In this document: positions 1-16,238 of the stretch, piece after piece
Position numbering within the stretch: the stretch's first letter is position 1
How the letters are laid out: each line of letters starts with the position of its first letter
Assembly: GCA_003135495.1 (NCBI GenBank)
Contig: PLBX01000552.1
Location: forward strand, 1-18,767
From: Acidobacteriaceae bacterium
GTDB taxonomy: Bacteria; Acidobacteriota; Terriglobia; Terriglobales; Acidobacteriaceae
DNA length: 18,767 bases
Direction: 5' to 3'
Notes under the pieces: model-generated
Told to the model about the DNA's origin: nothing
The model's input: the letters and a program-made list of their open reading frames with translations, nothing else
The model's database searches: none
Program-made: the position numbers and the translations under genes

Positions 1-659
1 TTCTTGATGTCGATCCAGCCATTGGTCATCGCCCCGCGTCCGAATGTTGGCCCCAAACTGGAGACCGTAGGGCCGTGTCAAACCCGAGCCTGGTTTTCCA
101 GGTAGCAGACCCCCAGGCTGCGCATGCTTTTGACCACCAGATAATTAAATTCATTGGTGTCGGTGCAGCCCCCGGTGAAGGCAATGCCCTCGCAGCGGTT
201 CACGGTGTGGCCATTCGCGTCTTTTTCCAGGAACGAGTCTTCACGCGTTTTCTTCACCCGCTGTGCGATTTCGCTGTAGGCCTGCTCCCAGGAAATGTCT
301 TCCCAATCGGTGGCTCCCGGCCGCCGCACTTGCGGCTTGAGCAGCCGCCGGTCATTCATGATGTCCTGTTCGAGCGATGAACCTTTGGGGCAGAGAGTTC
401 CGCGGTTGATGGGATGGTCGGGGTCGCCTTCGACGTGCACCACCTGCGGGATCGCGTTCTTGGCCTTGTCGCCGAGCGTGTAGATAATGACGCCGCAGCT
501 CACCGCACAATAAGGACAGGTGCTGCGAGTTTCGCTGGCGCGTGAAATTTTGAGGGATAGGGTCTGGGCGTAAACCGGGGTTAGATCGAAGCCGAGGGCA
601 GAGATTCCAGCACCCCCGAGAACCGTGCCCCTAAGAAAGTTCCGGCGAGATAGCTCCAT
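1..659 (-). CDS. fdnG: Formate dehydrogenase-N/O alpha subunit, selenoprotein, N-terminal part (cut by window edge)
   Basis: This is the catalytic molybdopterin subunit of a membrane-bound, periplasm-facing formate dehydrogenase. About 219 residues are in the window and the gene continues past base 1. Visible features: a twin-arginine signal (SRRNFLRG, residues 4-11) followed by a hydrophobic stretch ending near VYAQ; a [4Fe-4S] motif C48-x2-C51-x3-C55 with C90; and the FDH-type context NQARV before codon 194. Codon 194 is UGA (78-80), and the reading continues HGPTVSSLGPTFGRGAMTN, which matches known FDH alpha chains in which selenocysteine is the molybdenum ligand. The start is the ATG at 657-659, with a G-rich stretch upstream and the Tat signal directly after it; the open frame further upstream lacks family similarity. 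The iron-sulfur and cytochrome subunits are expected beyond the left edge. fdoG is an equally possible name. Confidence 0.93.
49..80 (-). promoter_or_regulatory. Selenocysteine UGA codon and bacterial SECIS element
   Basis: The UGA at 78-80 is followed in the mRNA by a hairpin: CUCC (63-60), loop AGUUU (59-55), GGGG (54-51), extended by GG (66-65) with CC (50-49) around an unpaired U at 64. Counting U of UGA as 1, this puts a bulged U at 17 and the loop GU at 23-24, the positions known to be needed for SelB binding in E. coli fdhF. The first bases after UGA (CACGGCCC) also match the E. coli formate dehydrogenase genes. The geometry is read from sequence; its function is inferred from the family. 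Confidence 0.85.
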
Positions 660-937
660 TGTGTTGCCCCCGTGCTGCACTTTCCAGAAGTTACGGAGGT
701 GAATGGTTGTGGACGCGCAAGATTGCGTCCGGCTTAATTCCTGCGAATGCGGAGAACTATAAACCCGAACCAATGCGACCGTCAACCGGGGAAACGGTCG
801 AGGATTAGGATACTCGACATTGACGAGCCTGAGAGCACCGTTTTTAGCGAGAAATCGACCCGACGGTTCATCCGTTATTACCGTCCAGATTACTGTTGAT
901 CCTCGATCTGATCGTTCCTTATATGTAGAAGAGTACG
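660..937. other. Gap between the 94-aa gene and fdnG
   Basis: This 278-bp gap holds no ORF with family similarity. It should carry the fdnG leader and promoter, and possibly a terminator for the 94-aa gene, but I cannot pick out a convincing box or hairpin. The long open frame that runs through it on the minus strand is an upstream extension of fdnG. Confidence 0.5.
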
Positions 938-1222
938 TCAAATATTGATAATTTTGTCGGTATGCCGGCTCAGGTACCAGCAGGGGCTGCTGCCGAAGTG
1001 CGGAAACAGGGAATGGACGCAGGTGTCGGTCTCCTGTTGTCCGGGCTCGTACTGAATCTTCCCACTCTTGACGTGGATGGCGTAAAGAGGATTCACCGTT
1101 ACTTGCCCAAACTGCGGACGCCCGCCAGGAATCTGGAAGCGCAACGAGCAATAGTCGCCGACATACAGCAGAGCGGCGATAACGACAATCGCAGTGACTG
1201 TCCAAAGCAATGCACGTTTCAT
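938..1222 (-). CDS. Small membrane-anchored protein of unknown function
   Basis: 94 residues. The start is the ATG at 1220-1222, with a weak GGGAT-type ribosome site. An N-terminal hydrophobic segment (about residues 5-20, ALLWTVTAIVVIAALLYV) suggests a membrane anchor or uncleaved signal, followed by a short soluble part with GGRPQFGQVTV and a C-terminal block with two cysteines (TCVHSLFPHFG, then SSPCWYLSRH). The Cys, Trp and His rich end looks constrained, and I have an impression of similar small proteins in Acidobacteriota, but I cannot name a family or function. It lies between fdnG (same strand, 278 bp downstream) and divergent fdhE, so a link to formate dehydrogenase is possible but unproven. 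Confidence 0.65.
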   Translation of the reverse strand: MKRALLWTVTAIVVIAALLYVGDYCSLRFQIPGGRPQFGQVTVNPLYAIHVKSGKIQYEPGQQETDTCVHSLFPHFGSSPCWYLSRHTDKIINI

Positions 1223-1373
1223 GGTTGATCCCGTATGCCGGCTCCCAAGTGTTAGTGAGTAATTGGAATCTTATCTGCTCATACGCGCGATCGTAACCAG
1301 GATTTTTCAAAGACCGGCGCATCTACCGTTTGCAGGTCCGTTTGCATGGTGCGACGCGGACATTCATAATCGC

Positions 1374-2249
1374 ATGATGTCTGATAGCGGACTCTCTGAT
1401 CGCAGTTTGCCGGGCCGCCGCATTTTTAATCGTACGACCGCGCAGGGCGAATGGCAGCGCCGGATTGCAAGGGCTGAGGAACTCGGCGCTCAGTACAGCT
1501 TTGCGGCGGAGATCCTGCGTTTTTATGCGGCCATCGCGCGCTTTCAGAAAGACTTATTTGCGGAAGCCGGACGGTCCCGTGCTGGCGTGCTTGCCGGTGG
1601 ACCCGAAGCAGAGGGTTTTGCATGCCCGCTTCTGCCCGGAGTTGAAAAACATTTCGGCGATTTTCTTACCGTGGTTGAACGGAATGGGCCTGCTCCGCTG
1701 CAAGAGCCTGCGCGCGAGTTGAGACGCGCCGGTTCTGAGGCCCACTTTCAATTGCTGGCGATTTTTTGGGAGGCTGGCGATGCGGGCGCGGTATCCTCCG
1801 GTCCAGCTGATTTTTTCGCGCGCGCATTTCTCCAGCCTTATGCGGCGGACATCCGCACACGCTCGATTATGCAGTGGAACGGGCCCGCTCCGTACTTGTG
1901 CCCTTTATGCAAACGAAAACCGGTATGCGGCGTTCTGCGTCCACTGGGAGACGGCGGACAGCGGTCTTTAGTCTGCTCATTTTGTCTGGCGGAATGGGAG
2001 TTTCGAAGACTCGTTTGCCCCGGATGCGGGGAGGAGAATCCCGCTAAGCTTGCGATATATACCGCCGAAGAACTCAAGCATGTTCGCGTGGAAGCGTGCG
2101 ATAGTTGCCGCATCTACATCAAGACAGTCGACATGACAAAGAGCGGACTGGCGGAGCCGGTGGTCGATGAGATCGCTGCGGTGCCGCTCGATCTGTGGGC
2201 TCAGAAGCAGGGATACACGAAGCTGCAAGCGAACCTGATGCAGCTATAG
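1374..2249 (+). CDS. fdhE: Formate dehydrogenase accessory protein FdhE
   Basis: FdhE is a cytoplasmic rubredoxin-like maturation factor for respiratory formate dehydrogenases. In 291 residues from the chosen start there are four CxxC pairs: C176/C179, C201/C204, C215/C218 and C242/C245. They fall in the order typical of the family and would bind iron or zinc. The helical N-terminal half includes the family-like stretch FAAEILRFYAAIARFQ near residues 43-58, and the end has the family's PLDLWAQKQGY. E. coli FdhE has 309 residues, so the length fits. The start is uncertain: tandem ATGs at 1374 and 1377 have no clear ribosome site, and a TTG at 1263 would add 37 residues without recognisable similarity. 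The partner enzyme gene, fdnG, lies on the opposite strand to the left. Confidence 0.9.
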   Translation: MMSDSGLSDRSLPGRRIFNRTTAQGEWQRRIARAEELGAQYSFAAEILRFYAAIARFQKDLFAEAGRSRAGVLAGGPEAEGFACPLLPGVEKHFGDFLTVVERNGPAPLQEPARELRRAGSEAHFQLLAIFWEAGDAGAVSSGPADFFARAFLQPYAADIRTRSIMQWNGPAPYLCPLCKRKPVCGVLRPLGDGGQRSLVCSFCLAEWEFRRLVCPGCGEENPAKLAIYTAEELKHVRVEACDSCRIYIKTVDMTKSGLAEPVVDEIAAVPLDLWAQKQGYTKLQANLMQL

Positions 2250-4847: not shown

Positions 4848-5915
4848 TCAATCGGAGCGCGGGGCCAGCCAGTTCTCAATGTGCGGCCATGTGCGTTTAC
4901 CTGCGCCACTCCCGGCCATAATTCCTATGTGGCCACCAGGAATACGAAACAGTTCCTTGTCGGTGCTGCTCACTCTTGACATGATCGCAGCCGACTGGCA
5001 CGGAGGCGTTATGTGATCCCCCTCGGCGATTACAGTAAGAAGCTTGGCGCTGATACGGCCCAAGTCAACCCGCTCTCCGCGGATTATCCATTCGCCGCGC
5101 ATTAAACGATCATTGCGATAGAGATCGACAACCAGTTGCCGGAATGCTCCGCCAGCCAGCGGTACATTATCAGTGACCCATGTATTCATCGCCTGCCAAG
5201 CATCGACGACCTGCGGATTGTCTAGGTTGTCCCACAACTTCAAATAATTTCCGACGTAATTTTCCACCGGTTTAAGGGCCTTGGCGCCATAGTCAATCAT
5301 CTCGCCGGGCATGTTGCCGAAAGCTGCCAGCACTTTGTCCACGTCAAAATAGCGCTCGTCGACCCAGCGCGAAAAGGTGATGCCGTCCTTGTTGGAAAAA
5401 TCTAAGGGCGCCGTCAACAGGACCAGGTTGCGCAATCCGTCATCCGGACGTAAAGCAGCGTAAATCGTGGTGATGATGGCCCCAATGCACCACCCCAACA
5501 TGCTGAATTCTTCGCTGCCCGACACTACCTTCAACTTGCGTATTGCGCGCGGCAGGTAGTCGAGCGCGTAATCGTCGAACTTTAAATGTTTATCCTCCGG
5601 GCCCGGCGTGCCCCAATCGAGAAGGTACAGATCGTAGCCGCTCTTAACCATGAATTCCACAAAACTATGGCCCGGTTTCAAATCGAGAATGTAAGGACGG
5701 TTCATCAGGGCGAAGACGAGCAGAAGCGGCACTGGATGCCGTTCTTCCTTGGGTAGCAAGGGTATGTAGCGGTATAGCTTGGCCTTGTTCAGCGTCCATA
5801 TCAATTCTTTGGGAGTTTGCGCAATGGACGCTTTCGTGGTCACCGCCTTGGTGAAGTCAGTGAACTTTTCTCCAACCCCTAAAAGCTGATCGGTGACAAC
5901 AGCTGCTTCGTACAT
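4848..5915 (-). CDS. phaC: Class III polyhydroxyalkanoate synthase, catalytic subunit PhaC
   Basis: 355 residues, the usual length of class III PhaC, against about 590 for class I. It polymerises (R)-3-hydroxyacyl-CoA on granule surfaces. The alpha/beta-hydrolase fold carries a modified lipase box GWCIG with nucleophile C143, the aspartate of GDH (D300) and the histidine of GGHIG (H329). These match the catalytic Cys-Asp-His of Allochromatium PhaC. Other family motifs seen are NRPYILDLKPG (72-82) and DLYLLDWGTPG (95-105). The start at 5913-5915 is only two bases after the stop of the PhaE-like gene, with AAGGGG about 8 bases upstream, so translation is probably coupled. Class III synthases work as PhaE-PhaC complexes, which fits this order. 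Confidence 0.95.
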   Translation of the reverse strand: MYEAAVVTDQLLGVGEKFTDFTKAVTTKASIAQTPKELIWTLNKAKLYRYIPLLPKEERHPVPLLLVFALMNRPYILDLKPGHSFVEFMVKSGYDLYLLDWGTPGPEDKHLKFDDYALDYLPRAIRKLKVVSGSEEFSMLGWCIGAIITTIYAALRPDDGLRNLVLLTAPLDFSNKDGITFSRWVDERYFDVDKVLAAFGNMPGEMIDYGAKALKPVENYVGNYLKLWDNLDNPQVVDAWQAMNTWVTDNVPLAGGAFRQLVVDLYRNDRLMRGEWIIRGERVDLGRISAKLLTVIAEGDHITPPCQSAAIMSRVSSTDKELFRIPGGHIGIMAGSGAGKRTWPHIENWLAPRSD

Positions 5916-5917
5916 GG

Positions 5918-6343
5918 CTACTTGGCCCCTTTCTTCCTGCTCCTTCTTGCTGCGGGTCTCGCTGCAGGCCGTGCTGCAGAACGGGTGCGCGAAGCTGGCC
6001 GTGGACTCGCAAGCGACTTTTCTATACGGTCCAGTTTGGCATCCATATCATCGAGACGCACTTCGATATTTACAGTCCTCTCCGCGATGCTGACCACGTC
6101 GGCCCTGGATGGCATGCTGAATTGCTGCAGTGCCTGTAGCATAACCTTCTCTACCGCTTCACGAAACGGGGAAGAGGCAGAAAGATAATTATTCAGCATC
6201 ATCCCGCTGGCCTTGGCGTAGGCATCAGTATTAACTGTGTCGACCATGCTCTTAGCCCATGCATCGAGATAGGTATCCCGCATCTCGCGAAACGCATCGG
6301 TGGGATCGAATTCCTTGCCGTTTGCCGCTTGTTTCTCACTCAT
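5918..6343 (-). CDS. phaE: Short PhaE-like PHA synthase subunit with basic Ala/Arg/Pro tail
   Basis: 141 residues directly upstream of phaC. The part from about residue 58 to 112 (FREAVEKVMLQALQQFSMPSRADV and the following coiled coil with LDDMDAKLDRIE) resembles the conserved C-terminal part of PhaE, the partner needed for class III synthase activity. Allochromatium PhaE is about 350 residues, so this copy lacks most of the usual N-terminal region. The last 29 residues (113-141) are a low-complexity basic tail with AARPAARPAARR and KKGAK, resembling the histone H1-like tails of PhaF-type phasins that bind DNA. A strong ribosome site, GGAGG, at 6354-6358 supports the start. It could also be called a PhaF/PhaM-like granule protein; its place next to phaC favours PhaE. 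Confidence 0.78.
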   Translation of the reverse strand: MSEKQAANGKEFDPTDAFREMRDTYLDAWAKSMVDTVNTDAYAKASGMMLNNYLSASSPFREAVEKVMLQALQQFSMPSRADVVSIAERTVNIEVRLDDMDAKLDRIEKSLASPRPASRTRSAARPAARPAARRSRKKGAK

Positions 6344-6377
6344 AAAGCAATATCCTCCATAGTCACCGCACAGTGGG

Positions 6378-6424
6378 AGACAGCCCTAGATACGCCAACT
6401 ATTATTGTAGGCGCTGGGCTGTCT
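6378..6424 (-). promoter_or_regulatory. Compound hairpin in the phaP-phaE intergenic RNA
   Basis: A perfect 9-bp outer repeat, AGACAGCCC (6378-6386) with GGGCTGTCT (6416-6424), encloses a second stem, CGCCAAC (6393-6399) with GTAGGCG (6407-6413), with one mismatch and a 7-nt loop. It fills the middle of the 102-bp gap. No T-tract follows on the minus strand, so I read it as an intercistronic RNA structure (attenuator, processing site or 3' stabiliser for phaP mRNA) more than a simple terminator. The pairing is read directly; the role is inferred. Confidence 0.6.
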
Positions 6425-6445
6425 ACCGGGCGAAGTATAATTTCG

Positions 6446-7045
6446 TTACGCCGCTGTCGCGTGCTTTACCGGCTTGGATGCGATATCCAGTACTGACTTT
6501 TGAGTCTCGAGCAAAAGATCTAATCCACTCTGAAACATCTCCGCAAAAGGGTTGGCAAGAAATGGATTCGCAAAGCGGAACTGCTTCTTGGCGGTTTCAT
6601 ATCCCGCTCTTTGCTGCTCTGCACAGAATTCCAGATTTTTCTTTTGCGTTGCGGTCGCGTGATCCACAGTCTGCTGGACGAGCGCAGTTGCGTTATCGGC
6701 GAACTTTGCCACCAAAGCTCCGCGCTCCTCGGCAAGGCCGGTTAGCGTTTCACTCTGCTCGACGGCAAGATCGATGTATTCCTTCTGGGTTTCGACATAG
6801 CGGTCTAAAGACTGGCCTAAAACATCGAACCAGAACACACCAGGTGTTTCCGGAGTGAGATGAAATGCTTTTTTGCAGGTCTGTACGAGTTCAGCGCTTT
6901 GGCCGGCTGCGACTTCCAGGGACTTCTTCTGGAGATCTGCCAGACGTTCGACGCTCTTCGTGTATACAGGGACGAAACTTGCCGCTACTTCAGCGCTTTC
7001 AGCTGCCGCTCGCGTGCTGCGTGTTGACTTTCGGGGGGTGCTCAT
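6446..7045 (-). CDS. phaP: Phasin family PHA granule-associated protein
   Basis: 199 residues, nearly all predicted amphipathic helix. It is rich in Ala, Glu, Gln and Lys and has no membrane segment. The central region (LADLQKKSLEVAAGQSAELV, then YVETQKEYIDLAVEQSETL and later VDHATATQKKNLEFCAEQQ) has the heptad-like pattern of phasins, which coat PHA granules and control their size. The N-terminus is basic (MSTPRKSTRSTR). The start at 7043-7045 has a strong AAGGAG (7052-7057). It is the first gene of a leftward phaP-phaE-phaC set and faces phaR, with a PhaR-type operator in between. Repression by PhaR that is relieved when polymer appears is the known logic for such pairs. Confidence 0.87.
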   Translation of the reverse strand: MSTPRKSTRSTRAAAESAEVAASFVPVYTKSVERLADLQKKSLEVAAGQSAELVQTCKKAFHLTPETPGVFWFDVLGQSLDRYVETQKEYIDLAVEQSETLTGLAEERGALVAKFADNATALVQQTVDHATATQKKNLEFCAEQQRAGYETAKKQFRFANPFLANPFAEMFQSGLDLLLETQKSVLDIASKPVKHATAA

Positions 7046-7091
7046 GATCTGCTCCTTCTTAGAACCAATGTTTTTTGAACTAAAATACTAA

Positions 7092-7148
7092 TGCTGCGAT
7101 ATATGCTGCAGCGCAGCACGACTTCATATTAGCGAGAATTGCTGCGAT
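7092..7148. promoter_or_regulatory. PhaR-type operator in the phaP/phaR divergent region
   Basis: A perfect palindrome, TGCTGC-AGC-GCAGCA (7104-7118), contains CTGC-N3-GCAG, the consensus reported for Paracoccus PhaR. Two half-sites reading TGCTGCGAT flank it at 7092-7100 and 7140-7148. It lies 59 bp upstream of the phaP start and 55 bp upstream of the phaR start, so it could control both genes, including autoregulation of phaR. Sequence match and context are strong; binding is inferred. Confidence 0.75.
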
Positions 7149-7172
7149 GTGTCAAGGGGAAAATGAGGCAAC

Positions 7173-7748
7173 ATGAATCGAAAGCCCGTCATCATTAAGA
7201 AATACGAAAACCGCCGTCTCTACGACACTACCAACAGCCGCTATATCAATCAGGATGAAGTGGCCCAAATGCTGCAGAGTGGTTACGACGTGCAGGTTGT
7301 GGATGCGGCTACCGGCGAGGATTTGACGCGCCTTGTGCTTACCCAGATCATCGTAGAGCAAGCAAAGGCGCCGAACTCTGCTTTCCCATTGGATGTTCTT
7401 CGGGAAATGGTCGTCGCTTCCAGCCGGGCAACACAGGAAAGCACGCTTAAGTACATGAAGACCGCACTTGATATGTACCAGAATGCGTATCGGGCTATAA
7501 CGCCCCCAGTAAACCCTTTCGAATTTATGCAGCCAACAGCACGCCAAGAGCCGCCAGAATCAGAGTCCGGCATGCAAAGGGGAATGGCCGCGAGCCGCCC
7601 TGCACGCAAGAAAGTAAGCGACAAAAAAAGCGAGCGGGATGTCGTGGGCGAACTCAAGCGTCGCGTTGCAGAACTGGAGTCGCACGTCTTGGGTCGCAGC
7701 GCTAAGAAACCGCGGAAGCGGAAAGCTGCGTCGCGCCGCAAGCCTTAA
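7173..7748 (+). CDS. phaR: PHA synthesis repressor PhaR
   Basis: 191 residues. The N-terminal domain (about residues 7-66) has the family signature IKKYENRRLYDTTNSRYI followed by VAQMLQSGYDVQVVDA and DLTRLVLTQII, the PHB/PHA accumulation regulator DNA-binding domain. PhaR binds DNA upstream of phasin genes and is titrated onto nascent polymer, which releases repression. The middle (LREMVVASSRATQESTLKYM) fits the accumulation domain. The C-terminal third is basic and low in complexity, with a short predicted coiled coil (VGELKRRVAELESHV) and a Lys/Arg-rich end, a tail similar in kind to that of the PhaE-like protein. The start at 7173 follows GAGG by 5 bases. Confidence 0.93.
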   Translation: MNRKPVIIKKYENRRLYDTTNSRYINQDEVAQMLQSGYDVQVVDAATGEDLTRLVLTQIIVEQAKAPNSAFPLDVLREMVVASSRATQESTLKYMKTALDMYQNAYRAITPPVNPFEFMQPTARQEPPESESGMQRGMAASRPARKKVSDKKSERDVVGELKRRVAELESHVLGRSAKKPRKRKAASRRKP

Positions 7749-8199: not shown

Positions 8200-9030
8200 C
8201 TAGAAGTGGAAGCCGCCGCCGCAGATCAATACTTCGCCGGTCACGTAATCGGAAAGGGGCGAGCAAAAGAAGAGGACAGCTCCTGCAGCCTCGGTAGGTG
8301 TTCCCAGCCGTCCCAATGGACACGCGGTTTTCACCGATTCGAGCATCGTCGCCTGCACTCCAAGTTTGATCGAACGCCCGCCCATTTCGATGTTTGAGCC
8401 TTCGCCAGTGAGCACCTGAGTAAGACGAGTTTCGATCAGGCCGAAGCCGACGGCGTTAACATTGACGTTATAGCGGCCCCATTCTTTTGATAGCGTTCGC
8501 GTGAGGCCGAGCACGCCGGCTTTTCCGGATGAATAGCCGGCTTGTCCGGGATTGCCGTCGGTGCCTGCAATCGAAGTTATGTTGACCACCTTTCGCATAA
8601 CCTGCTTGCCCGCCGCTATTTCGCGTTTGGCGGTTTCGCGGATATATGTGGATGCAGCCCGCAAGATGCGGAAAGGCACGACCAGGTGGATTTCCAGCAT
8701 CGCCTGGAATTGCTCGTCCGTAGTTTTTTGAATGACGCCGTCCCAACTGTAACCGGCGTTATTCACTATGATGTCAACGGAGCCAAAAGCATCGAGCGTC
8801 GCTTGTATGAGTTTGTCGGGAAAATCGGGCTGGGTAAGGTCGCCGGCGCAGATTTCTACTTTTTTCCCGATCGAGCCGAGAAGAGATTTGGTCTCGCGCA
8901 GCGCGGATTCGTCCAGATCATTAACCATGACCGAGGCGCCACAGTCGGCGAGTTTTTCCGCGATGGCCCGGCCAATACCGCGGCCAGACCCCGTAACTAA
9001 AGCGGTCTTACCATTAAGATTAAAGGACAT
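8200..9030 (-). CDS. Short-chain dehydrogenase/reductase (3-hydroxyacyl-CoA or 3-ketoacyl reductase type)
   Basis: 276 residues with a full classical SDR set: nucleotide-binding TGSGRGIG (13-20), NNAG (90-93), and catalytic S153, Y166 and K170 (YSSGK). D38 at the end of the second strand (VMVNDLDE) usually favours NAD(H) over NADP(H). An insertion of about 15 residues near 130-146 (RETAKREIAAGKQV) separates it from standard FabG/PhaB. The likely reaction is interconversion of 3-ketoacyl- and 3-hydroxyacyl-thioesters; the exact substrate is unknown. The start at 9028-9030 has GGTGGTG upstream. The open frame extends to 9090, but that extension is made of the PhaR-like palindromes and is rejected. 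The gene is divergent from the MaoC-phosphotransacylase gene. Confidence 0.85.
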   Translation of the reverse strand: MSFNLNGKTALVTGSGRGIGRAIAEKLADCGASVMVNDLDESALRETKSLLGSIGKKVEICAGDLTQPDFPDKLIQATLDAFGSVDIIVNNAGYSWDGVIQKTTDEQFQAMLEIHLVVPFRILRAASTYIRETAKREIAAGKQVMRKVVNITSIAGTDGNPGQAGYSSGKAGVLGLTRTLSKEWGRYNVNVNAVGFGLIETRLTQVLTGEGSNIEMGGRSIKLGVQATMLESVKTACPLGRLGTPTEAAGAVLFFCSPLSDYVTGEVLICGGGFHF

Positions 9031-9056
9031 AAATGCACCACCATTCGAGCAACGGA

Positions 9057-9090
9057 CGCTGCAGTGCAGCGAACTGTTGCTGCAGTGCAT
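9057..9090. promoter_or_regulatory. Tandem PhaR-type operators between the SDR and maoC-ptb genes
   Basis: Site A, CGCTGC-AGT-GCAGCG (9057-9071), is a perfect 6-bp-arm palindrome containing CTGC-N3-GCAG. Site B, TGCTGC-AGT-GCATTA (9078-9092), has a perfect left arm and a right arm with 4 of 6 matches. Their centres are 21 bp apart, two helical turns, so they would lie on the same DNA face. They sit 26 bp upstream of the SDR start and about 70 bp upstream of the divergent gene. This predicts PhaR control of both genes. Confidence 0.65.
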
Positions 9091-9162: not shown

Positions 9163-10584
9163 ATGGATCGTATCGAAAATCGCACGTTTAAGGAATTGCA
9201 GGTCGGCGACAGCGCCAGTATTACGCGAAAGTTGACTTACAAGGACATTGAGCTCTTTGCCATTATGTCGGGGGACGTGAATCCGGCGCACGTGGACGCA
9301 GAGTTTGCCAAAAACGATATGTTTCACCAGATCATTGCCCACGGAATGTGGGGAGGGGCTTTGATATCGACGGTCCTAGGGACCGAACTTCCAGGACCTG
9401 GCGCAATTTATCTGGCGCAATCGCTGCGATTCAGGCGTCCCGTGTGTATCGGCGACACACTTACGGTGAGCGTTACAGTTGCTGAAAAGTTTACAGACAG
9501 GAACCGGATTACGCTCGAGTGCCAGGCCACAAATCAGAAGGGTGAGCTAGTGATCTGCGGTACGGCTGAAGTTATCGCGCCCGCGGAAAAGATTTCCCGC
9601 GAACGCGTAATTCTTCCTGAGGTGAAACTGCTAGAGCGTGGCCGCCACTACCGCCGGCTGATCGATGCGACCCGAGGCAAGGCGCCAATTAGGACAGCCA
9701 TTGTGCATCCAGTGGACTGTGTCTCTTTGCAAGGTGCAATCAGTGCCGCCCAAGCTAAGCTCATCATTCCTGTTTTTATCGGGCCGGAGGCACGAATCCG
9801 TGCTGCGGCGCAGCAAGCTCATCTTGATATTGCTTCTTACGAAATAATAAGTACGGAACACAGCCTTGCCGCGGGCATGTTGGCGGTGGCATTCGCGCGG
9901 GAGCGCAAGGTCGATGCTTTAATGCAAGGCAGCATTCATGCCGATGAACTGATGCAAGTGGTAAATACGGAAGAAGGCCTGCGCTCGGGACGACGCATGA
10001 GCTACGTTTCCGCGATCGACGTTCCTAGCTTTCCTCGACCCTTATTCGTTACGGACGCGCTCTTGAATATCTATCCGACGTTGGAAGACAAGCGAGACAT
10101 TGTCCAAAATGCAATTGACATGGCTCACTGTTTAGGTTTGGCGAGGCCGAAGGTCGCATTGCTCGCGGCGCAAGAGGCGGTGTCGGGGAAACTGCCCTCG
10201 ACACTGGATGCGGCGGTACTATGCAAAATGGCCGATCGCGGACAGATTACTGGAGGCGATGTCGATGGCCCCTTGGAGTTCGGGGTCGCTTTGTCCCCAG
10301 AAAGTGCGCAGAGCAAAGGGGTCGTATCCGTGGTTGCCGGGCAGGCGGACATTTTTCTCGTCCCAGATATGGAAGCCGGCAGCATGCTGGTCGAGCAACT
10401 GGAACTGCTCGCTGATGCCCAGGTTGCGGGGTTAGTGGTTGGCGCCCGAGTTCCAGTCATTTTGACGACGCGGACTGACAGCGCTCTGACACGGCTTGGT
10501 TCCTGCGCGTTGGCGTTATTGATGAGTCAGTCCCAGCGAACGTTGGAGAAAGCCTCACCGCTCCGCCAGGAGATCGTTGCCTAA
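9163..10584 (+). CDS. MaoC-like (R)-enoyl-CoA hydratase fused to phosphate acetyl/butyryltransferase
   Basis: 473 residues with two domains. Residues about 8-140 are a MaoC/PhaJ hot-dog hydratase with D38-x4-H43 (GDVNPAHVD), the catalytic pair of (R)-specific enoyl-CoA hydratases. Residues about 155-465 are a phosphotransacetylase/phosphotransbutyrylase domain, with family motifs such as VDALMQGSIHADELM (250-264), TDALLNIYPTLEDKRDI (297-313) and VAGQADIFLVPDMEAGSML (391-409). The domain order is known from annotated 'bifunctional enoyl-CoA hydratase/phosphate acetyltransferase' proteins. The hydratase would give (R)-3-hydroxyacyl-CoA for PHA; the second domain would exchange CoA for phosphate. 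No acyl kinase (ack/buk) lies in the window. AGGAGG at 9149-9154 supports the start. Confidence 0.92.
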   Translation: MDRIENRTFKELQVGDSASITRKLTYKDIELFAIMSGDVNPAHVDAEFAKNDMFHQIIAHGMWGGALISTVLGTELPGPGAIYLAQSLRFRRPVCIGDTLTVSVTVAEKFTDRNRITLECQATNQKGELVICGTAEVIAPAEKISRERVILPEVKLLERGRHYRRLIDATRGKAPIRTAIVHPVDCVSLQGAISAAQAKLIIPVFIGPEARIRAAAQQAHLDIASYEIISTEHSLAAGMLAVAFARERKVDALMQGSIHADELMQVVNTEEGLRSGRRMSYVSAIDVPSFPRPLFVTDALLNIYPTLEDKRDIVQNAIDMAHCLGLARPKVALLAAQEAVSGKLPSTLDAAVLCKMADRGQITGGDVDGPLEFGVALSPESAQSKGVVSVVAGQADIFLVPDMEAGSMLVEQLELLADAQVAGLVVGARVPVILTTRTDSALTRLGSCALALLMSQSQRTLEKASPLRQEIVA

Positions 10585-11053: not shown

Positions 11054-11839
11054 TTACATGTGGTATCCGCCGTTGACGTTCAACTCTTGCCCTGTGATGT
11101 AATCCGCATCCGCCGCCAGGAAGCCGGCAGCCTTCGCTATCTCCTCGGTTGAGGCGAACCGTCCTAAAGGAATCTTCGACTTTATTTGCGCTGCAATTTC
11201 TTCTGGAATCGCTTCGACCATTTCTGTGGAAGTGAATCCGGGTGCAATCGCGTTGGCGGTGATGTTGAACTTCGCCATCTCCAGCGCGAGAGTTTTAGTA
11301 AAGGCAATGATGCCGCCTTTACTGGCGGAGTAATTAGCCTGACCGAATGCGCCCATCTGCCCGACCACCGAGCTGATGTTGATAATCCTTCCGAAGCGCT
11401 GGTTGATCATGGAAGGCAACGCGGCGCTGGTGCAGTAGAAGGTGCCGTTAAGATTCACGTTGATCACTTCTGCCCAGTCATCCTCAGTCATCTTGCGCAT
11501 GCTTCGGTCGCGCGTTATGCCGGCGTTGTTAACCAGGATGTCGAGCCGCTGCCACTTATCCAATACTTCTTTCACGATGCGGCGCGCTTCGCCTTTCTTG
11601 GATACATCGCCTTGAATGGCGATGCATTCCACGCCGAGCTCTCGAATTTCGGCCGCTGCGCTCTCAGCATGCGTGCAATCACACCGGTAGTCCAAGGCAA
11701 TGTTGGCGCCGCGCCGCGCGAGTTCGATGGCGATGGCGCGTCCAATGCCTCGCCCAGCGCCCGTAACCAGCGCTACTTTTCCACGCAAAGAGTGAGAGCC
11801 ATTTTCATTTCCGTTTCCATTGTTTCCCTTATTTTCCAT
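11054..11839 (-). CDS. Reductase part with its own start (3-ketoacyl-ACP / acetoacetyl-CoA reductase-like)
   Basis: This is an alternative reading inside the large ORF. An ATG at 11837-11839 is preceded by AGGAGAGG (11856-11849) at ideal spacing and would give a 261-residue protein: a 17-residue Asn/Gly-rich leader (MENKGNNGNGNENG), then LRGKVALVTG, the usual N-terminus of FabG or PhaB. The catalytic S157, Y170 and K174, NNAG (104-107) and the C-terminal ITGQELNVNGGYHM are all intact. The product would reduce acetoacetyl-CoA or 3-ketoacyl-ACP to the (R)-3-hydroxy form. Whether it exists as a separate protein, as the end of the fusion, or both, cannot be settled from sequence. Confidence 0.55.
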   Translation of the reverse strand: MENKGNNGNGNENGSHSLRGKVALVTGAGRGIGRAIAIELARRGANIALDYRCDCTHAESAAAEIRELGVECIAIQGDVSKKGEARRIVKEVLDKWQRLDILVNNAGITRDRSMRKMTEDDWAEVINVNLNGTFYCTSAALPSMINQRFGRIINISSVVGQMGAFGQANYSASKGGIIAFTKTLALEMAKFNITANAIAPGFTSTEMVEAIPEEIAAQIKSKIPLGRFASTEEIAKAAGFLAADADYITGQELNVNGGYHM

Positions 11840-13738
11840 CGAAGTATTCCTCTCCTGAGAGTTGCAAGTTACTATTGCAGGGTCCACTTGCATCACCACG
11901 TAACCGCCCACCGCTCCCGCGCCAAAGCCGGGCGCGAAAACCCGCATGGGACGGTCGATTCGTCCGTCGCGCACGGCATCGTGAATGGCCAGCAAAATAC
12001 TGGCGGACGAAGTATTTCCCACGCGTTCAATGTTGAAGTAAAGGCGTTCAGCGTCGAGGCCGGCCGCTTTGGCCAGGTCGAGCACCATGCTCTTATTGGC
12101 TTGGTGCGGCACGACGAGATCGATTGCATCCATCAGCGAGCCGTCACCCCCGTTAGGGTGTGGCAGCGCTTTGAGCTCAGCGATCATTTGCACGAGATAG
12201 CGTTTCGCCAGCATCTTCACTTCGGGTCCGTACACGGTAATGTTGTTGTCGAACTCCGGATTAGGCCAGATGATGGAATTCACTTCCGACCATGGGCCGC
12301 TGGCGTAAGTTTGAAATACCTCGATGTCGGACGGCTCTCCAGCCGGCGCTGGACTTACGATCATTGCCGCAGCACCGTCGCCGAAGATCATGCGAGAGGT
12401 TCGCACGGTGCCGATTTTGTCCGAAAACTTCTCCGCACAGACGACCAGAATAGGCCGCTCGATCTCCTGCAGCAGGCGGACCGCTTCGGAGAGCCCATAA
12501 GACATTCCCGCACATGCCGCCACAATGTCGCAGGAACAATGGGTCTGGGCGAGTCCTAATTCGCCTGACAACCATGTAGATACCGACGGTATGAGTCTCG
12601 TGCTGGTGCAACTGCAGAACAGCACTGCGCCGATCTCCGACGGTTTGCGGCCTGACTTCGTGAGCGCCGCTCGCACCGCCAGCAGAGACATATCCTCCAG
12701 GCTCAACTCGCTGTAGCAACGTTGTTCGATGCCCGTCTTCTCCGAAATATCCGTTGCGCTCATACGCGACCAGCAATAAGCCTGGTTGCTGATGAGGTCG
12801 GTGTTGGTGCACGGTATCTCGCCCTCATATACGGCAATCGCTTCGATGCGCGGAAGAACCTTGAAGCGCTCGCTGACGATGATTGGCAGATACGGTTCTT
12901 CCGGCTCACTTAACGCCAACGTCTCAGGCCGCGCGGGCCGTGGTCGATGGATCGCATGACCGTTTTGTTTAACGCGCTCGATGAACTGAAGCACGTCTGT
13001 GTTCTTGGGGTGATACGCCACGACGTAGTCGTCGTCCTGCAGTTTGCCCACCTCAATACTGCTGCTGGTGGCCGGATCCCAGCGATACTGGTTGTGGAGA
13101 ATCATCGACTGGCGCATGAGCGCTTCGAGTTCAGGGACCGTATGGAGACAGTTGAGTACGTCGTCGTGATCGTAGCCGGGATAGTCCCGGTCATAAATGA
13201 GCAGCCGGTACGTTAAATTGTTTGGATCAGACAGAATTTCATCGACGGTAGGCTTGATGCCTCGAAATTCCCCGCCGGCTCCCTGCTTATTTCGGAAGGC
13301 GTCGAGCAGAATGTGGAAGCTCTTGTCCTCGATCTCTTCATCCCATAGAGCGGGGAGCGTCTCGTACCCCGCCGCGATGGCAGCTCCCATGCCGCCTTCT
13401 TCGCGGGGCTTGTAGACGGGTAGAAAAATATCGGTCCGGTGACGCGGAAGATCCTTCCAACGTGTCGGGCGTTTTTCGTACATGGTCAGTACGTAACGCT
13501 GTGTCCAAAAAAGGTTGAGTGCCAGATCGCGGCAAATTTCGTAGCGGCTGTGGTAGTGGCCTGCTCGCACGCGCGCCACGATGTCGTTTTCGGTCGGCGC
13601 CTTCTCCCCGAAGTCTCGCCTGATTACGGCAGTAAATTGATTCAGCGTATCGAAGACAGAAAAATCCAACTCCGGAAAGAAATTGCAGGGAAATACCATC
13701 CGGCCATATCGGTTGATGACAAACGGTTTGAGCAACAT
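11054..13738 (-). CDS. Three-part protein: unknown N-terminal domain, ketoacyl synthase III, FabG/PhaB-like reductase
   Basis: 894 residues from the ATG at 13736-13738, which has AAGGAAG upstream and does not overlap the preceding gene; a longer in-frame start at 13777 would. Residues 1 to about 285 are an unrecognised domain with RYEICRDLALNLFWTQRYVL and DIFLPVYKPREEGG. Residues about 295-620 are a KAS III/FabH-like thiolase fold with catalytic C409 (AACAGMSYGL), H545 (VPHQAN) and N575 (RVGNTSSAS). After a linker rich in Asn and Gly come about 240 residues of SDR with TGAGRGIG, NNAG and Ser-Tyr-Lys (S157, Y170, K174 counted from its own Met), close to FabG/PhaB. The reaction set would be decarboxylative condensation to a 3-ketoacyl thioester, then reduction. 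The joint contains an internal ribosome site and ATG, so the reductase may also, or only, be made separately. Confidence 0.82.
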   Translation of the reverse strand: MLLKPFVINRYGRMVFPCNFFPELDFSVFDTLNQFTAVIRRDFGEKAPTENDIVARVRAGHYHSRYEICRDLALNLFWTQRYVLTMYEKRPTRWKDLPRHRTDIFLPVYKPREEGGMGAAIAAGYETLPALWDEEIEDKSFHILLDAFRNKQGAGGEFRGIKPTVDEILSDPNNLTYRLLIYDRDYPGYDHDDVLNCLHTVPELEALMRQSMILHNQYRWDPATSSSIEVGKLQDDDYVVAYHPKNTDVLQFIERVKQNGHAIHRPRPARPETLALSEPEEPYLPIIVSERFKVLPRIEAIAVYEGEIPCTNTDLISNQAYCWSRMSATDISEKTGIEQRCYSELSLEDMSLLAVRAALTKSGRKPSEIGAVLFCSCTSTRLIPSVSTWLSGELGLAQTHCSCDIVAACAGMSYGLSEAVRLLQEIERPILVVCAEKFSDKIGTVRTSRMIFGDGAAAMIVSPAPAGEPSDIEVFQTYASGPWSEVNSIIWPNPEFDNNITVYGPEVKMLAKRYLVQMIAELKALPHPNGGDGSLMDAIDLVVPHQANKSMVLDLAKAAGLDAERLYFNIERVGNTSSASILLAIHDAVRDGRIDRPMRVFAPGFGAGAVGGYVVMQVDPAIVTCNSQERNTSMENKGNNGNGNENGSHSLRGKVALVTGAGRGIGRAIAIELARRGANIALDYRCDCTHAESAAAEIRELGVECIAIQGDVSKKGEARRIVKEVLDKWQRLDILVNNAGITRDRSMRKMTEDDWAEVINVNLNGTFYCTSAALPSMINQRFGRIINISSVVGQMGAFGQANYSASKGGIIAFTKTLALEMAKFNITANAIAPGFTSTEMVEAIPEEIAAQIKSKIPLGRFASTEEIAKAAGFLAADADYITGQELNVNGGYHM
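11849..11874 (-). promoter_or_regulatory. Internal ribosome site and out-of-frame tandem stops at the synthase-reductase joint
   Basis: AGGAGAGG (11856-11849) lies 9 bases before the internal ATG. Just upstream, TAG TAA (11874-11869) lies one base out of the synthase frame. Losing one C from the CCC just before it would end the synthase two codons after QVD, a natural end for a KAS III. This looks like an ordinary two-gene junction made continuous by a single base. Confidence 0.6.
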
Positions 13739-13763
13739 AACTTCTTCCTTCACCCGGCGGAAG

Positions 13764-14207
13764 CTATTCGAACTCAACCAATGTCTGGTTAATTTTGACT
13801 GCTTCCCCAGGAACTACCTTGACGCTTTTAAGCTTCCCCGCAAATGGAGCCGTAACGCTGGTTTCCATCTTCATGGCCTCCAGAACGAGGATCAAATCAT
13901 CGGGCGATAACTCATCTCCAGCCTTGACGCTAACTCGTACAACTATTCCGGCGACCGGACTGTGGCACAATTTCGATTCATCAGGCTCGTTGGCTGAATG
14001 AGGGTGCGCTCTGGGTACTGTGGGCAACACCTTCGATTGAAGCTGCGCTCCAACATGAGGACCGCCGCTCGACCCCACCAGCAAAGCTCCCCCGCCGTCG
14101 ATCTCAATTTCAACTTCATAGGCCTGTCCGCCAACTGCGATCTGCATTTTCACAGACGGCTCCAATTCAATCGCGCTTTGTGCGGTGAACCGATCGCCGA
14201 CTGCCAT
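13764..14207 (-). CDS. Biotin carboxyl carrier protein of an acyl-CoA carboxylase or decarboxylase
   Basis: 147 residues. The C-terminal part (about 80-147) is a biotinyl domain with the signature EAMKMET; K113 would carry biotin. The glycine/alanine turns PVAGIV and PFAGKL flank it as in the family. The first 75 residues have a beta-rich segment (QIAVGGQAYEVEIEIDGG) and a Pro/Ala linker, as in stand-alone carriers of propionyl/methylmalonyl-CoA enzymes. The start at 14205-14207 lies one base after the stop of the upstream gene, suggesting coupled translation; an in-frame ATG 20 codons on (MQIAVGG) is an alternative. The gene belongs to the carboxyltransferase operon. Confidence 0.88.
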   Translation of the reverse strand: MAVGDRFTAQSAIELEPSVKMQIAVGGQAYEVEIEIDGGGALLVGSSGGPHVGAQLQSKVLPTVPRAHPHSANEPDESKLCHSPVAGIVVRVSVKAGDELSPDDLILVLEAMKMETSVTAPFAGKLKSVKVVPGEAVKINQTLVEFE

Positions 14208-14208
14208 G

Positions 14209-14631
14209 TCATAGCTCGTGGCCTCGCTGGCTCAAATTATGCGAAGCCTGAATTACGACCCGCCCTTGCTGAGCCCATGGGTCGGCCGTTATCGTGGGTG
14301 TCTGCAGCAGCTTCACCGACCGAACCCGAATCTTCCTGCCCAGCAAAGCGGTGATCGTTTGTGAAATCATTGACACCGTTTCTGGCGAAATCTCATCGCT
14401 CACTACTGGCAACGAAGTAGCTTCATCTTTCGCTTTAGATTTAGATTCTTGCGTCGCGGCGTCAGACGCCTCTTGCAGGACTTTCACTTGAGTCGACAAG
14501 GCTTCTATTTGCCGGTCGAACTCAATCCCATGTTGAGCGCACCTCCGTTGAATCGTGCGTCGCAAGATGATGAATGGCACCAGCCATCCGGCGATGACGA
14601 GCGCGGCAGCCAAAATGTATGTGTGCGTCAT
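14209..14631 (-). CDS. Single-TM OadG-like small subunit
   Basis: 140 residues. One N-terminal membrane helix (about residues 5-23, ILAAALVIAGWLVPFIIL) is followed by a basic stop-transfer (RRTIQRR), a charged coiled-coil-like stretch (about 37-75), and a C-terminal block (SPETVSMISQTITALLG, then WAQQGRVVIQASHNL). Layout and place, between a carboxyltransferase and a biotin carrier, resemble the gamma/delta membrane subunits of sodium-pumping decarboxylases (OadG/MmdD), whose C-termini have a similar I-A-I-x-ALG...W..GR pattern. The likely role is to tether the biotin-carboxyltransferase complex to the membrane. Similarity is weak, so the family call is tentative; the stop is one base before the biotin carrier start. 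Confidence 0.6.
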   Translation of the reverse strand: MTHTYILAAALVIAGWLVPFIILRRTIQRRCAQHGIEFDRQIEALSTQVKVLQEASDAATQESKSKAKDEATSLPVVSDEISPETVSMISQTITALLGRKIRVRSVKLLQTPTITADPWAQQGRVVIQASHNLSQRGHEL

Positions 14632-14642
14632 TGCAATCGATC

Positions 14643-16238
14643 CTAGAGTGGAATCAATCCATGCTTTTTCGGCGGACGAAACTCTCGCTTCGAAATAACC
14701 GCTCCCAAGGCTCGCGCAAGATATTTAGGGGTCTCGGCGGGTTCGATGATGTCATCCACCAAACGACGCCCAGCCGATACGTAGGGATTGGCAAAAGTGT
14801 TGCGGTAACGCTCAATGAGTTCTTTGCGCCGGAACGCTTTATCTTCCGCTTCATCGATTTCATGACGGAAGACAATCTCCGCCGCACCTTCCGCGCCCAT
14901 TACTGCAATTTCAGCGGTGGGCCATGCGACAACGCGATCTGCTCCCAATTTTTTGCTGCACATGGCGATGTAGGCTCCGCCATAAGCCTTGCGCAACACG
15001 ACGGTTATTTTTGGAACGGTCGCAGCTGAATATGCGAAGAGCATCTTTGCTCCGTGCCGAATAATGCCGCCGTATTCCTGCTCAATACCCGGTAAGAATC
15101 CTGGCGTGTCCACGAAAGTTATGAGAGGAGTATTGAACGCGTTGCAGAAACGAACGAAGCGTGCGACCTTATCGGAAGCGTCAATGTCGAGCACCCCTGC
15201 CAGCACGCGAGGCTGATTTGCCACGATGCCGACGGAGCGTCCCTGAATGCGGCCAAATCCAATGACAACATTCGCGGCGAAACCGGGCTGGATCTCAAAA
15301 AAATCCTGATAGTCCAGAGTCCGGGAAATCACGGAACGAACGTCGTAGGGAATTTTTGGGTCTACCGGAACCAGCTGATTTAAATCTGGGTCGGACTCGG
15401 GCGCGACGTTATGAGGCAGTTTGGGAGCTTCTTCCAGATTGTTCGACGGCAGGAAACTCAACAGACGACGGCATAAAGATAGCGCTCCAGCGTCTTCGTC
15501 GGCGATCAGGTGAACCACGCCCGAGCGATTCATTTGCGCTGCGGGGCCGCCTAATTCCTCGGAGGTCACTACTTCGCCAGTGACCTGCTTGATGACGGAT
15601 GGCCCGGTGATGAACATCCGGCCTTGCTTGGTTTGAATAATGAAATCGGTTAGAGCAGGACTATATGCAGCGCCGCCTGCGCATGGACCGCAGATGATAG
15701 AAATCTGCGGCACCGTACCTGACAACAAAGTGTTATTGAAAAAAACGCTCGCGTAACCGGCGAGGCTATCGATACCTTCCTGAACCCGCGCGCCTCCGGA
15801 ATCGTTGATGAAAATGAACGGGCTGCCGGTCTTGAGTGAAAGCTGCATCATCTCTGTGATTTTGGCGCAATGCGCCTCACCCGCCGCCCCCCCGACGACG
15901 GTGAAATCCTGACTGGCAAGATGCACAAGCCTGCCATCAATACTGGCGCAGCCTGTGACCACTCCATCCGCCGGCAAATCTTTCTCTGCCATGCCAAAGT
16001 AAGTAGAACGATGCTTCGCGAAGGCGCCTATTTCTTGAAAGCTCTCTCGATCGACAAGTTGGTCCACGCGCTCGCGGGCAGTGAGTTTCCCGGAAGCGTG
16101 GTGCTTGTCGATTCGTTTTTTTCCGCCTCCGCCGGTGACGGTGGTACGCTTCACGCGAAGCTCGGCGATCTTTCCTTCCATCGTTGGTTTCTCCGAAACA
16201 AGTTGCAATGCGGGCGTAGAGACCGGATTCGCGGCCAT
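14643..16238 (-). CDS. Acyl-CoA carboxylase carboxyltransferase (PccB/MmdA type)
   Basis: 531 residues, the normal length of the single-chain carboxyltransferases of propionyl-, acetyl- or methylmalonyl-CoA (de)carboxylases. The two crotonase-like halves are seen: the N-terminal half (about 45-280) with TARERVDQLVD, FINDSGGARVQEG and CGPCAGGAAYSPALTDF, and the C-terminal half (about 290-520) with TPGFLPGIEQEYGGIIRHGAKMLF and YGGAYIAM. It moves a carboxyl group between biotin and an acyl-CoA. Substrate choice (acetyl against propionyl) is not decidable here. AGGAG just upstream supports the start at 16236-16238. It is first in a four-gene leftward operon with gaps of 11, 1 and 25 bases. No biotin carboxylase gene is in the window. 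Confidence 0.92.
   Translation of the reverse strand: MAANPVSTPALQLVSEKPTMEGKIAELRVKRTTVTGGGGKKRIDKHHASGKLTARERVDQLVDRESFQEIGAFAKHRSTYFGMAEKDLPADGVVTGCASIDGRLVHLASQDFTVVGGAAGEAHCAKITEMMQLSLKTGSPFIFINDSGGARVQEGIDSLAGYASVFFNNTLLSGTVPQISIICGPCAGGAAYSPALTDFIIQTKQGRMFITGPSVIKQVTGEVVTSEELGGPAAQMNRSGVVHLIADEDAGALSLCRRLLSFLPSNNLEEAPKLPHNVAPESDPDLNQLVPVDPKIPYDVRSVISRTLDYQDFFEIQPGFAANVVIGFGRIQGRSVGIVANQPRVLAGVLDIDASDKVARFVRFCNAFNTPLITFVDTPGFLPGIEQEYGGIIRHGAKMLFAYSAATVPKITVVLRKAYGGAYIAMCSKKLGADRVVAWPTAEIAVMGAEGAAEIVFRHEIDEAEDKAFRRKELIERYRNTFANPYVSAGRRLVDDIIEPAETPKYLARALGAVISKREFRPPKKHGLIPL

Follow-up and report, generated by a model that had tools for sequence, protein, structure and literature searches.

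Genomic evidence for a probable malonyl-CoA route to polyhydroxyalkanoate replacing PhaA in Acidobacteriota

Polyhydroxyalkanoate (PHA) is usually synthesized by PhaA, PhaB, and PhaC, a pathway in which the first step, catalyzed by a thiolase, is both unfavorable and reversible. Here we describe a PHA gene cluster that appears to begin differently. It lies on a stretch of 18,767 nucleotides from an Acidobacteriaceae bacterium (GenBank assembly GCA_003135495.1, contig PLBX01000552.1; hereafter the window, meaning the whole stretch analyzed), where pha genes stand near a minus-strand operon encoding carboxylase subunits and an 894-aa fusion of a β-ketoacyl-acyl carrier protein (ACP) synthase III (KAS III) with a PhaB-like reductase; no thiolase was found among the window proteins scanned. 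Genomic data argue strongly that such operons feed PHA synthesis from malonyl-CoA instead of through PhaA; the chemistry is inferred.

The closest described precedent is an engineered one. A malonyl-CoA bypass with NphT7, a KAS III from the mevalonate cluster of Streptomyces sp. CL190 that uses malonyl-CoA and acetyl-CoA (PMC5432608), is a known engineering solution for polyhydroxybutyrate (PHB) production (PMC10530661, PMC5432608). PHB-producing sugarcane carrying NphT7 relies, as this locus would, on malonyl-CoA instead of a thiolase (PMC10530661); the cluster considered here, however, is natural and recurrent, and in 12 of 17 genomes it brings along its own genes for carboxyltransferase (CT) and biotin carrier. 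Other natural supply routes to PHA, according to PMC6686919, run through FabG, PhaJ, FabD, or SucD–4HbD–OrfZ. A full-text search of open-licence PMC papers found no report of natural KAS III-based PHA supply, or of the fusion described below.

The operon and its predicted chemistry

The initial annotation had described a single leftward operon with intergenic gaps of 11, 1, and 25 bp, and the coordinates confirm it: CT, a 140-aa protein, a biotin carrier, and one long open reading frame (ORF) follow each other on the minus strand. Of the gene list given there (CT, a protein with one transmembrane segment, biotin carrier, KAS III, and a short-chain dehydrogenase/reductase, SDR), Pfam matches bear out CT, biotin carrier, KAS III, and SDR, but the KAS III and the reductase are one protein, whose first 285 residues form a separate domain absent from that list. 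The features are as follows.

14643..16238, minus strand: CT of the MmdA/PccB type, 531 aa (PF01039, E 1.7e-186; TIGR01117 mmdA, 755 bits, cut-off 999)
14209..14631, minus strand: 140-aa protein lying between the CT and biotin carrier genes, hydrophobic in a single stretch at its N terminus (position, translation)
13764..14207, minus strand: biotin carrier, 147 aa, with the biotinylation motif EAMKM in its translation (PF00364, E 3.1e-15)
11054..13738, minus strand: 894-aa fusion of N-terminal domain, KAS III, and PhaB-like reductase in one open frame (PF08545/PF08541, PF00106/PF13561)
12881..13738, minus strand: N-terminal domain of the fusion, residues 1-286, family not recognized (no Pfam match)
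11843..12883, minus strand: KAS III domain with Cys409-His545-Asn575, in which Ser replaces the FabH ACP arginine (HQANKS; Pfam, alignment, Foldseek)
11849..11856, minus strand: AGGAGAGG, Shine-Dalgarno-like, before the internal ATG of the reductase part (motif and ATG span 11837-11856; junction motif counts)
11054..11839, minus strand: reductase domain, ancestrally a PhaB, which may also be translated by itself from an internal ATG at 11839 (SDR tree)

Judged from sequence, this operon probably serves PHA storage with an ATP-driven route of its own to (R)-3-hydroxybutyryl-CoA, one that has displaced the PhaA/BktB-type thiolase of the cluster. In such a route, CT and the biotin carrier, with a biotin carboxylase (BC) encoded elsewhere, would convert acetyl-CoA to malonyl-CoA. 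The KAS III, to judge by its fold, its triad, and its lost ACP arginine, would load acetyl from acetyl-CoA on Cys409 and condense it with malonyl-CoA, and the loss of CO2 would make acetoacetyl-CoA formation effectively one-way. The fused reductase, given its kinship with thiolase-linked phaB, would then produce (R)-3-hydroxybutyryl-CoA on the same chain, and PhaC would polymerize it. Compared with the PhaA/BktB–PhaB–PhaC pathway, the system shares the gene cluster, orthologous PhaC and PhaR, a PhaB part that falls in one clade, and the same predicted intermediates; it differs in having a carboxylase and a KAS III instead of the thiolase, and in the fusion of the KAS III to PhaB. The supply line for PHA from carboxylase through KAS III to reductase, as first proposed for this DNA, is supported on genomic grounds by linkage and alternation, with the reservation that the operon lacks a BC.

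Alternation with the phaC-linked thiolase

We compared 40 Acidobacteriota genomes that carry this phaC: 36 of the 398 family genomes, each with an orthologue of the window PhaC at 68% identity or more, together with G126, G184, G251, and G467. Among 250 genomes of the class, the set from which G126, G184, and G251 come, orthologues at that level occur in seven, and five further weak partial matches were left out; of another 30 genomes, 26 with PhaC matches 29–42% identical were likewise left out, and G467 was kept. A thiolase was counted as linked if it was at least 64% identical to that of locus L160 and lay on the phaC contig, and the KAS III with the N-terminal domain in G838 was counted although split over two contigs.

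The fusion is present in 17 of the 40 genomes and the linked thiolase in 19; none has both, and four (G739, G184, G873, G467) have neither. The alternation is significant by genome (Fisher p 6.9e-8) and by genus (p 0.026; 16 genera, of which 5 have the KAS III, 8 PhaA, and 3 neither), both values being uncorrected for shared descent. In 13 of the 17 genomes the fusion lies no more than about 8 kb from phaC on one contig. Conserved linkage to pha genes in relatives, and absence of phaA, were the two patterns that the initial annotation had proposed to look for; the linkage is conserved, and a phaC-linked thiolase is absent where the KAS III is present. The fusion is patchy in its distribution, being full length in 4 of 61 genomes (the window's own and its relatives) and present in 2 of the 250 genomes of the class, its own included; a third match in the class (33% over 85 residues) was taken as chance. 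One of the genomes with neither enzyme, G739 (77% complete), has a decayed remnant of the KAS III–reductase fusion next to an intact phaC (L171:4370-5100).

The reductase ties the two kinds of cluster together. Next to the thiolase, 16 of the 19 thiolase genomes encode an SDR that shares 60–71% identity with the reductase domain of the fusion. In a phylogeny of 58 SDRs, the 17 fused domains form one clade (100/99), which joins 16 phaA-linked PhaBs and one unfused SDR of G712 in a clade supported at 99/98, with 13 other FabG-like SDRs outside it; branching within the joint clade is less sure (93/70). Because the fused reductase groups with the phaB found beside the thiolase, the fusion appears to take the place of PhaA within one kind of cluster; most simply, a KAS III gene displaced that of the thiolase and became joined to the phaB already there. 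The linked thiolase tested, that of L160, is BktB-like (NF006552, 645 bits, cut-off 565) and falls under the cut-off of the equivalog NF042999 (630 vs 725).

Other thiolases weigh against this account. The window's own genome (G000) has three, whose identity to the linked PhaA in L160 reaches 46%, and each of the 40 genomes has at least one thiolase match; a fourth PF00108 match in G000 falls on the FabH gene of contig C583. A complete absence of thiolase is accordingly rejected, and the description of the system as thiolase-free stands for the pha cluster but not for the genome. It is conceivable, if fairly unlikely, that one of these thiolases supplies most of the acetoacetyl-CoA, and that the KAS III, with the chemistry set out above, is a side route used at low acetyl-CoA. 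The three thiolases of G000 would fit that arrangement, as would L061, where both kinds of enzyme occur in one locus. But genomes without the fusion have a comparable number of other thiolases, and yet 19 of those 23 keep a dedicated, linked one. For these clusters, we continue to favor replacement of the linked thiolase by the KAS III.

The fused protein and its relatives

The best 120 of 4005 homologues of the fusion all have both KAS III and SDR Pfam domains, and their named sources are Terriglobales, Candidatus Sulfotelmatobacter, and Korobacteraceae. The frame across the KAS III–reductase junction is open in 17/17 fusion genomes, and an assembly artefact is rejected on both grounds. Translation is placed at the ATG at 13738, a start common to the aligned homologues. 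A 36-row tree places the fused acidobacterial proteins together in a clade of their own (100/100), with proteins associated with giant carboxylases, described below, in another (99/97). A full-length AF2 model of the 894-aa protein is weak across much of the reductase part.

An in-frame ATG stands at the junction in every one of the 17 fusion genes, and AGGAG or GGAGG occurs within 20 nt upstream of the junction Met codon in 16 of them, compared with 3 of 288 other Met codons; the codon phase of this motif varies between lineages. The pattern suggests an internal start within the fusion gene and production of some free PhaB: as the junction retains an ATG and a motif resembling a ribosome-binding site, a free reductase may be made alongside the fused one.

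The Cys-His-Asn triad of the KAS III had been read as intact, and Cys409, His545, and Asn575 (894-aa numbering) indeed do not vary across an alignment of 36 sequences that includes the one from the window. By both sequence and fold the domain is closest to FabH (best Foldseek match a FabH2, E 1.8e-21), with a score below the cut-off of the FabH model TIGR00747 (131 bits vs 292). In E. coli FabH, Arg249 in HQAN-x-R is used for ACP, and we take this arginine to be the one meant for NphT7 as well. It is absent from all 17 fusions, which read HQANK[STNK]M, and from 28 of 30 other family members, but kept in 4/4 FabHs of fusion-carrying genomes examined. The fusion thus shares fold and triad with the FabH of fatty acid synthesis and differs from it in the lost ACP arginine and in the fused N-terminal domain and reductase; a separate FabH is retained in the four carrier genomes. 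NphT7 is reported to lack the ACP-binding arginine and to have an AGGSR motif, proposed for CoA recognition (PMC5432608). It therefore has the KAS III fold, the triad, and the missing arginine in common with the fusion, for which the same reaction is a prediction. NphT7 serves the mevalonate pathway, in contrast, and the fusion would serve PHA, and the accessible sections of PMC5432608 mention no extra N-terminal domain or fused reductase.

Several observations run against a CoA-dependent enzyme of the NphT7 kind. AGGSR is not present in a 23-sequence alignment of fusion homologues; Arg occupies the FabH position in two family members, those of L053 and L058; and the reductase passes, barely, as a 3-oxoacyl-ACP reductase (TIGR01830, 298.1 vs 297.75), while falling below the cut-off as an acetoacetyl-CoA reductase (TIGR01829, 269 vs 302). 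Together with the closeness to FabH, and with the name 3-oxoacyl-ACP synthase or reductase given, among the best 120 of 4005 homologues, by most of the sources that name them, the reductase score would suit a fusion that acts on acyl-ACP in lipid or secondary metabolism and has a PHA neighborhood by coincidence. We regard this as very unlikely, given the loss of the arginine in all fusions and its retention in the FabHs of the same genomes, the alternation with the phaC-linked thiolase, and the pairing with PHA synthases in other phyla.

That pairing comes from a scan of genome contigs for KAS III with the N-terminal domain, in which 79 loci were kept of 503 confirmed. Unfused proteins of this kind, about 650 aa long, occur in Geodermatophilaceae, Frankiaceae, Nocardioidaceae, Micrococcaceae, Mycolicibacterium, Desulfuromonadaceae, Steroidobacteraceae, and Vicinamibacterales. 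Across 31 unfused loci, mostly from Actinomycetota, there is a carboxylase match in 24, an SDR in 23, a PHA synthase (PhaC) match in 20, and a thiolase in 2. Seven ORFs near unfused KAS III genes (at L045, L049, L053, L067, and L100, and two at L055) hit PHA synthase models with E≤1e-36, all of them scoring under the curated cut-off, which the PhaC of L061 exceeds. The loci that fit less well are L061 and L103, which hold the thiolases, and the seven without a carboxylase over threshold (L053, L054, L056, L057, L058, L099, L103), among which L054 consists of fragments only, L057 is a short contig, and L103 lacks the KAS III part. The L061 locus of Desulfuromonadaceae (L061:1699-15818) brings together phaE, phaC, a carboxylase chain, the KAS III, an SDR, and a thiolase; a plasmid search with its protein at E≤1e-60 gave no match. 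At L103, from Candidatus Mycobacterium methanotrophicum, an ORF with the N-terminal domain (L103:11556-12524) shares its locus with a thiolase and a PhaB-like SDR.

The N-terminal domain itself is found in about 2,500 predicted proteins (2513 at E≤1e-5), for which the proposed route, if true, would suggest a function. It may also form a stand-alone family: the 120 listed of 609 matches are 236–506 aa long, and while many of them come from short contigs, some lie on long ones. Pfam, Foldseek, and VIA gave no support for a known fold; as VIA works only by re-ranking the matches of Foldseek, these results do not establish a new one. The domain may take part in handing over malonyl-CoA from the carboxylase, or may tether the enzyme to the granule.

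Carboxylase partners and neighboring genes

CT lies on the fusion's contig in 12 of the 17 genomes. The 140-aa protein gives no family above cut-off in a Pfam scan and finds matches 34–50% identical at the equivalent position in other genomes' operons. CT and biotin carrier are what the operon shares with acyl-CoA carboxylases of the PccB/MmdA type; it differs from them in its missing BC and in its pairing with a KAS III. The missing BC and the uneven linkage of CT count against the favored route. BC genes lie on other contigs only, two in each of four carrier genomes, and every one of them stands beside another biotinyl-type ORF; the operon therefore depends on a subunit encoded elsewhere. 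Genes intervene between CT and fusion in L185 and L194, and no CT is visible near the fusion in 5 of the 17 genomes (L169, L175, L188, and, on contigs cut short, L193 and L199), of which L193 shows the biotin carrier only.

The substrate of CT bears on a further alternative, in which propionyl-CoA is what the carboxylase uses; the KAS III would then take methylmalonyl-CoA or a propionyl primer, and the monomers would be 2-methyl-branched or 3-hydroxyvalerate. CT belongs to the MmdA/PccB group, and its best PDB matches are 1on3 and 1vrg (12S transcarboxylase subunit and propionyl-CoA carboxylase). BktB-type thiolases accept propionyl-CoA, and it is a thiolase resembling BktB that was displaced. 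Where S. coelicolor PccB has Asp422, however, Ile stands in the operon CT of all 11 distinct loci with a visible motif, and separate PccB genes in three of these genomes (L122, L129, L131) have Cys, neither Asp nor Ile. The D422I change in PccB broadens its use to acetyl-CoA (PMC7835884). Ile is also found in 1vrg, named a propionyl-CoA carboxylase, which tells against the proposed substrate and makes the residue weak evidence for acetyl-CoA use. Given that the partner carboxylases read outside Acidobacteriota are acetyl-CoA-carboxylase-like, and that three of the genomes have a separate PccB, we consider a propionyl-CoA route improbable, and the 2-methyl-branched monomers once envisaged for this locus receive no positive support.

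CT, the one-transmembrane protein, and the biotin carrier might instead form an Mmd-like decarboxylase or transcarboxylase, with malonyl-CoA coming from the general AccABCD enzyme and the later steps proceeding as in the favored route. In mmdA-D-C, the order is CT, small membrane protein, biotin carrier, and the operon resembles it. The match of CT to mmdA (TIGR01117) would agree, at 755 bits against a cut-off of 999, as would the absence of BC from the operon and the five fusion genomes with no visible CT. On the other hand, no pump subunit occurs among the Pfam-scanned window ORFs (the genome was not searched for one), the 140-aa protein and three homologues have no OadG/MmdD match above the Pfam cut-off, and the carboxylases read in other phyla include BC. 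This alternative is unlikely in our view, and we return to a carboxylase that makes malonyl-CoA from acetyl-CoA.

Carboxylase domains were read by Pfam in three loci outside Acidobacteriota, the others being scored by similarity to these. In Actinomycetota (L047, L059) the enzyme is a single chain of 1837–1884 aa with the order BC-BCCP-ACC_central-CT; in Desulfuromonadaceae (L061) it is a 1523-aa AccA/AccD-BC-BCCP chain adjoining phaE and phaC. Their substrate is predicted from domain content, because the NCBIfam matches fall below curated cut-offs. Counting the CT and carrier of the operon, one KAS III family is therefore paired with three carboxylase architectures.

Taken at its widest, the evidence inclines us, by a modest margin, to think that there is a natural, ATP-paid PHA pathway without a dedicated thiolase in at least Acidobacteriota, Actinomycetota, and Desulfuromonadaceae. 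It would rest on a KAS III family not described before, whose N-terminal domain has no fold match, paired with three carboxylase architectures. On the same account the acidobacterial form would have taken in phaB and kept its ribosome-binding site, such that one gene would give both the condensing-reducing fusion and free PhaB. If so, bacteria have evolved an NphT7-like bypass with more than one carboxylase partner, and one lineage has joined condensation and reduction in one chain, making the reversible first step of PHA synthesis ATP-paid and one-way. The potential for PHA would then be read differently from genomes, as a missing linked phaA would not mean a missing pathway, and the enzymes would be on offer for one-way acetoacetyl-CoA supply.

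The remaining PHA-related genes of the window are these.

4848..5915, minus strand: PHA synthase PhaC, class III type (best model TIGR01836, 333 bits, cut-off 365)
5918..6343, minus strand: small PHA synthase subunit, PhaE/PhaR-like, 141 aa (TIGR02132, 42 bits, cut-off 148)
6446..7045, minus strand: phasin-like phaP (position; 32–57% identical matches beside phaC in KAS III genomes)
7173..7748, plus strand: phaR regulator (PF07879, E 6.8e-27)
8200..9090, minus strand: second SDR/FabG-like gene of the PHA neighborhood (PF13561, E 5e-49; relatives near KAS III and thiolase clusters alike)
9163..10584, plus strand: MaoC hydratase–phosphate acyltransferase fusion, a neighbor whose role is not settled (NF006045, 668 bits, cut-off 282)

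The nearby phaP, phaE, phaC, and phaR of the initial annotation are thus located at 4848-7748, two of them with less certain names: the phasin-like protein matches nothing in Pfam at E≤0.001 (Phasin_2 appears only at E 0.098), and the 141-aa "PhaE" matches only the class IV subunit model, below its cut-off. Relatives of the MaoC–phosphate acyltransferase fusion occur near pha or KAS III genes in L164, L181, L184, L192, and L198, with a partial match in the thiolase-type L166; the protein might connect PHA monomers with acyl phosphates. A promoter and terminator scan returned fewer sites than in shuffled sequences. At the far end of the window, positions 3-1322 (minus strand) hold the start of a formate dehydrogenase with a TAT signal, adjoining fdhE at 1263-2249 (plus strand); the dehydrogenase ORF ends at a TGA within NQARV-U-HGPTV, which resembles a selenocysteine site.

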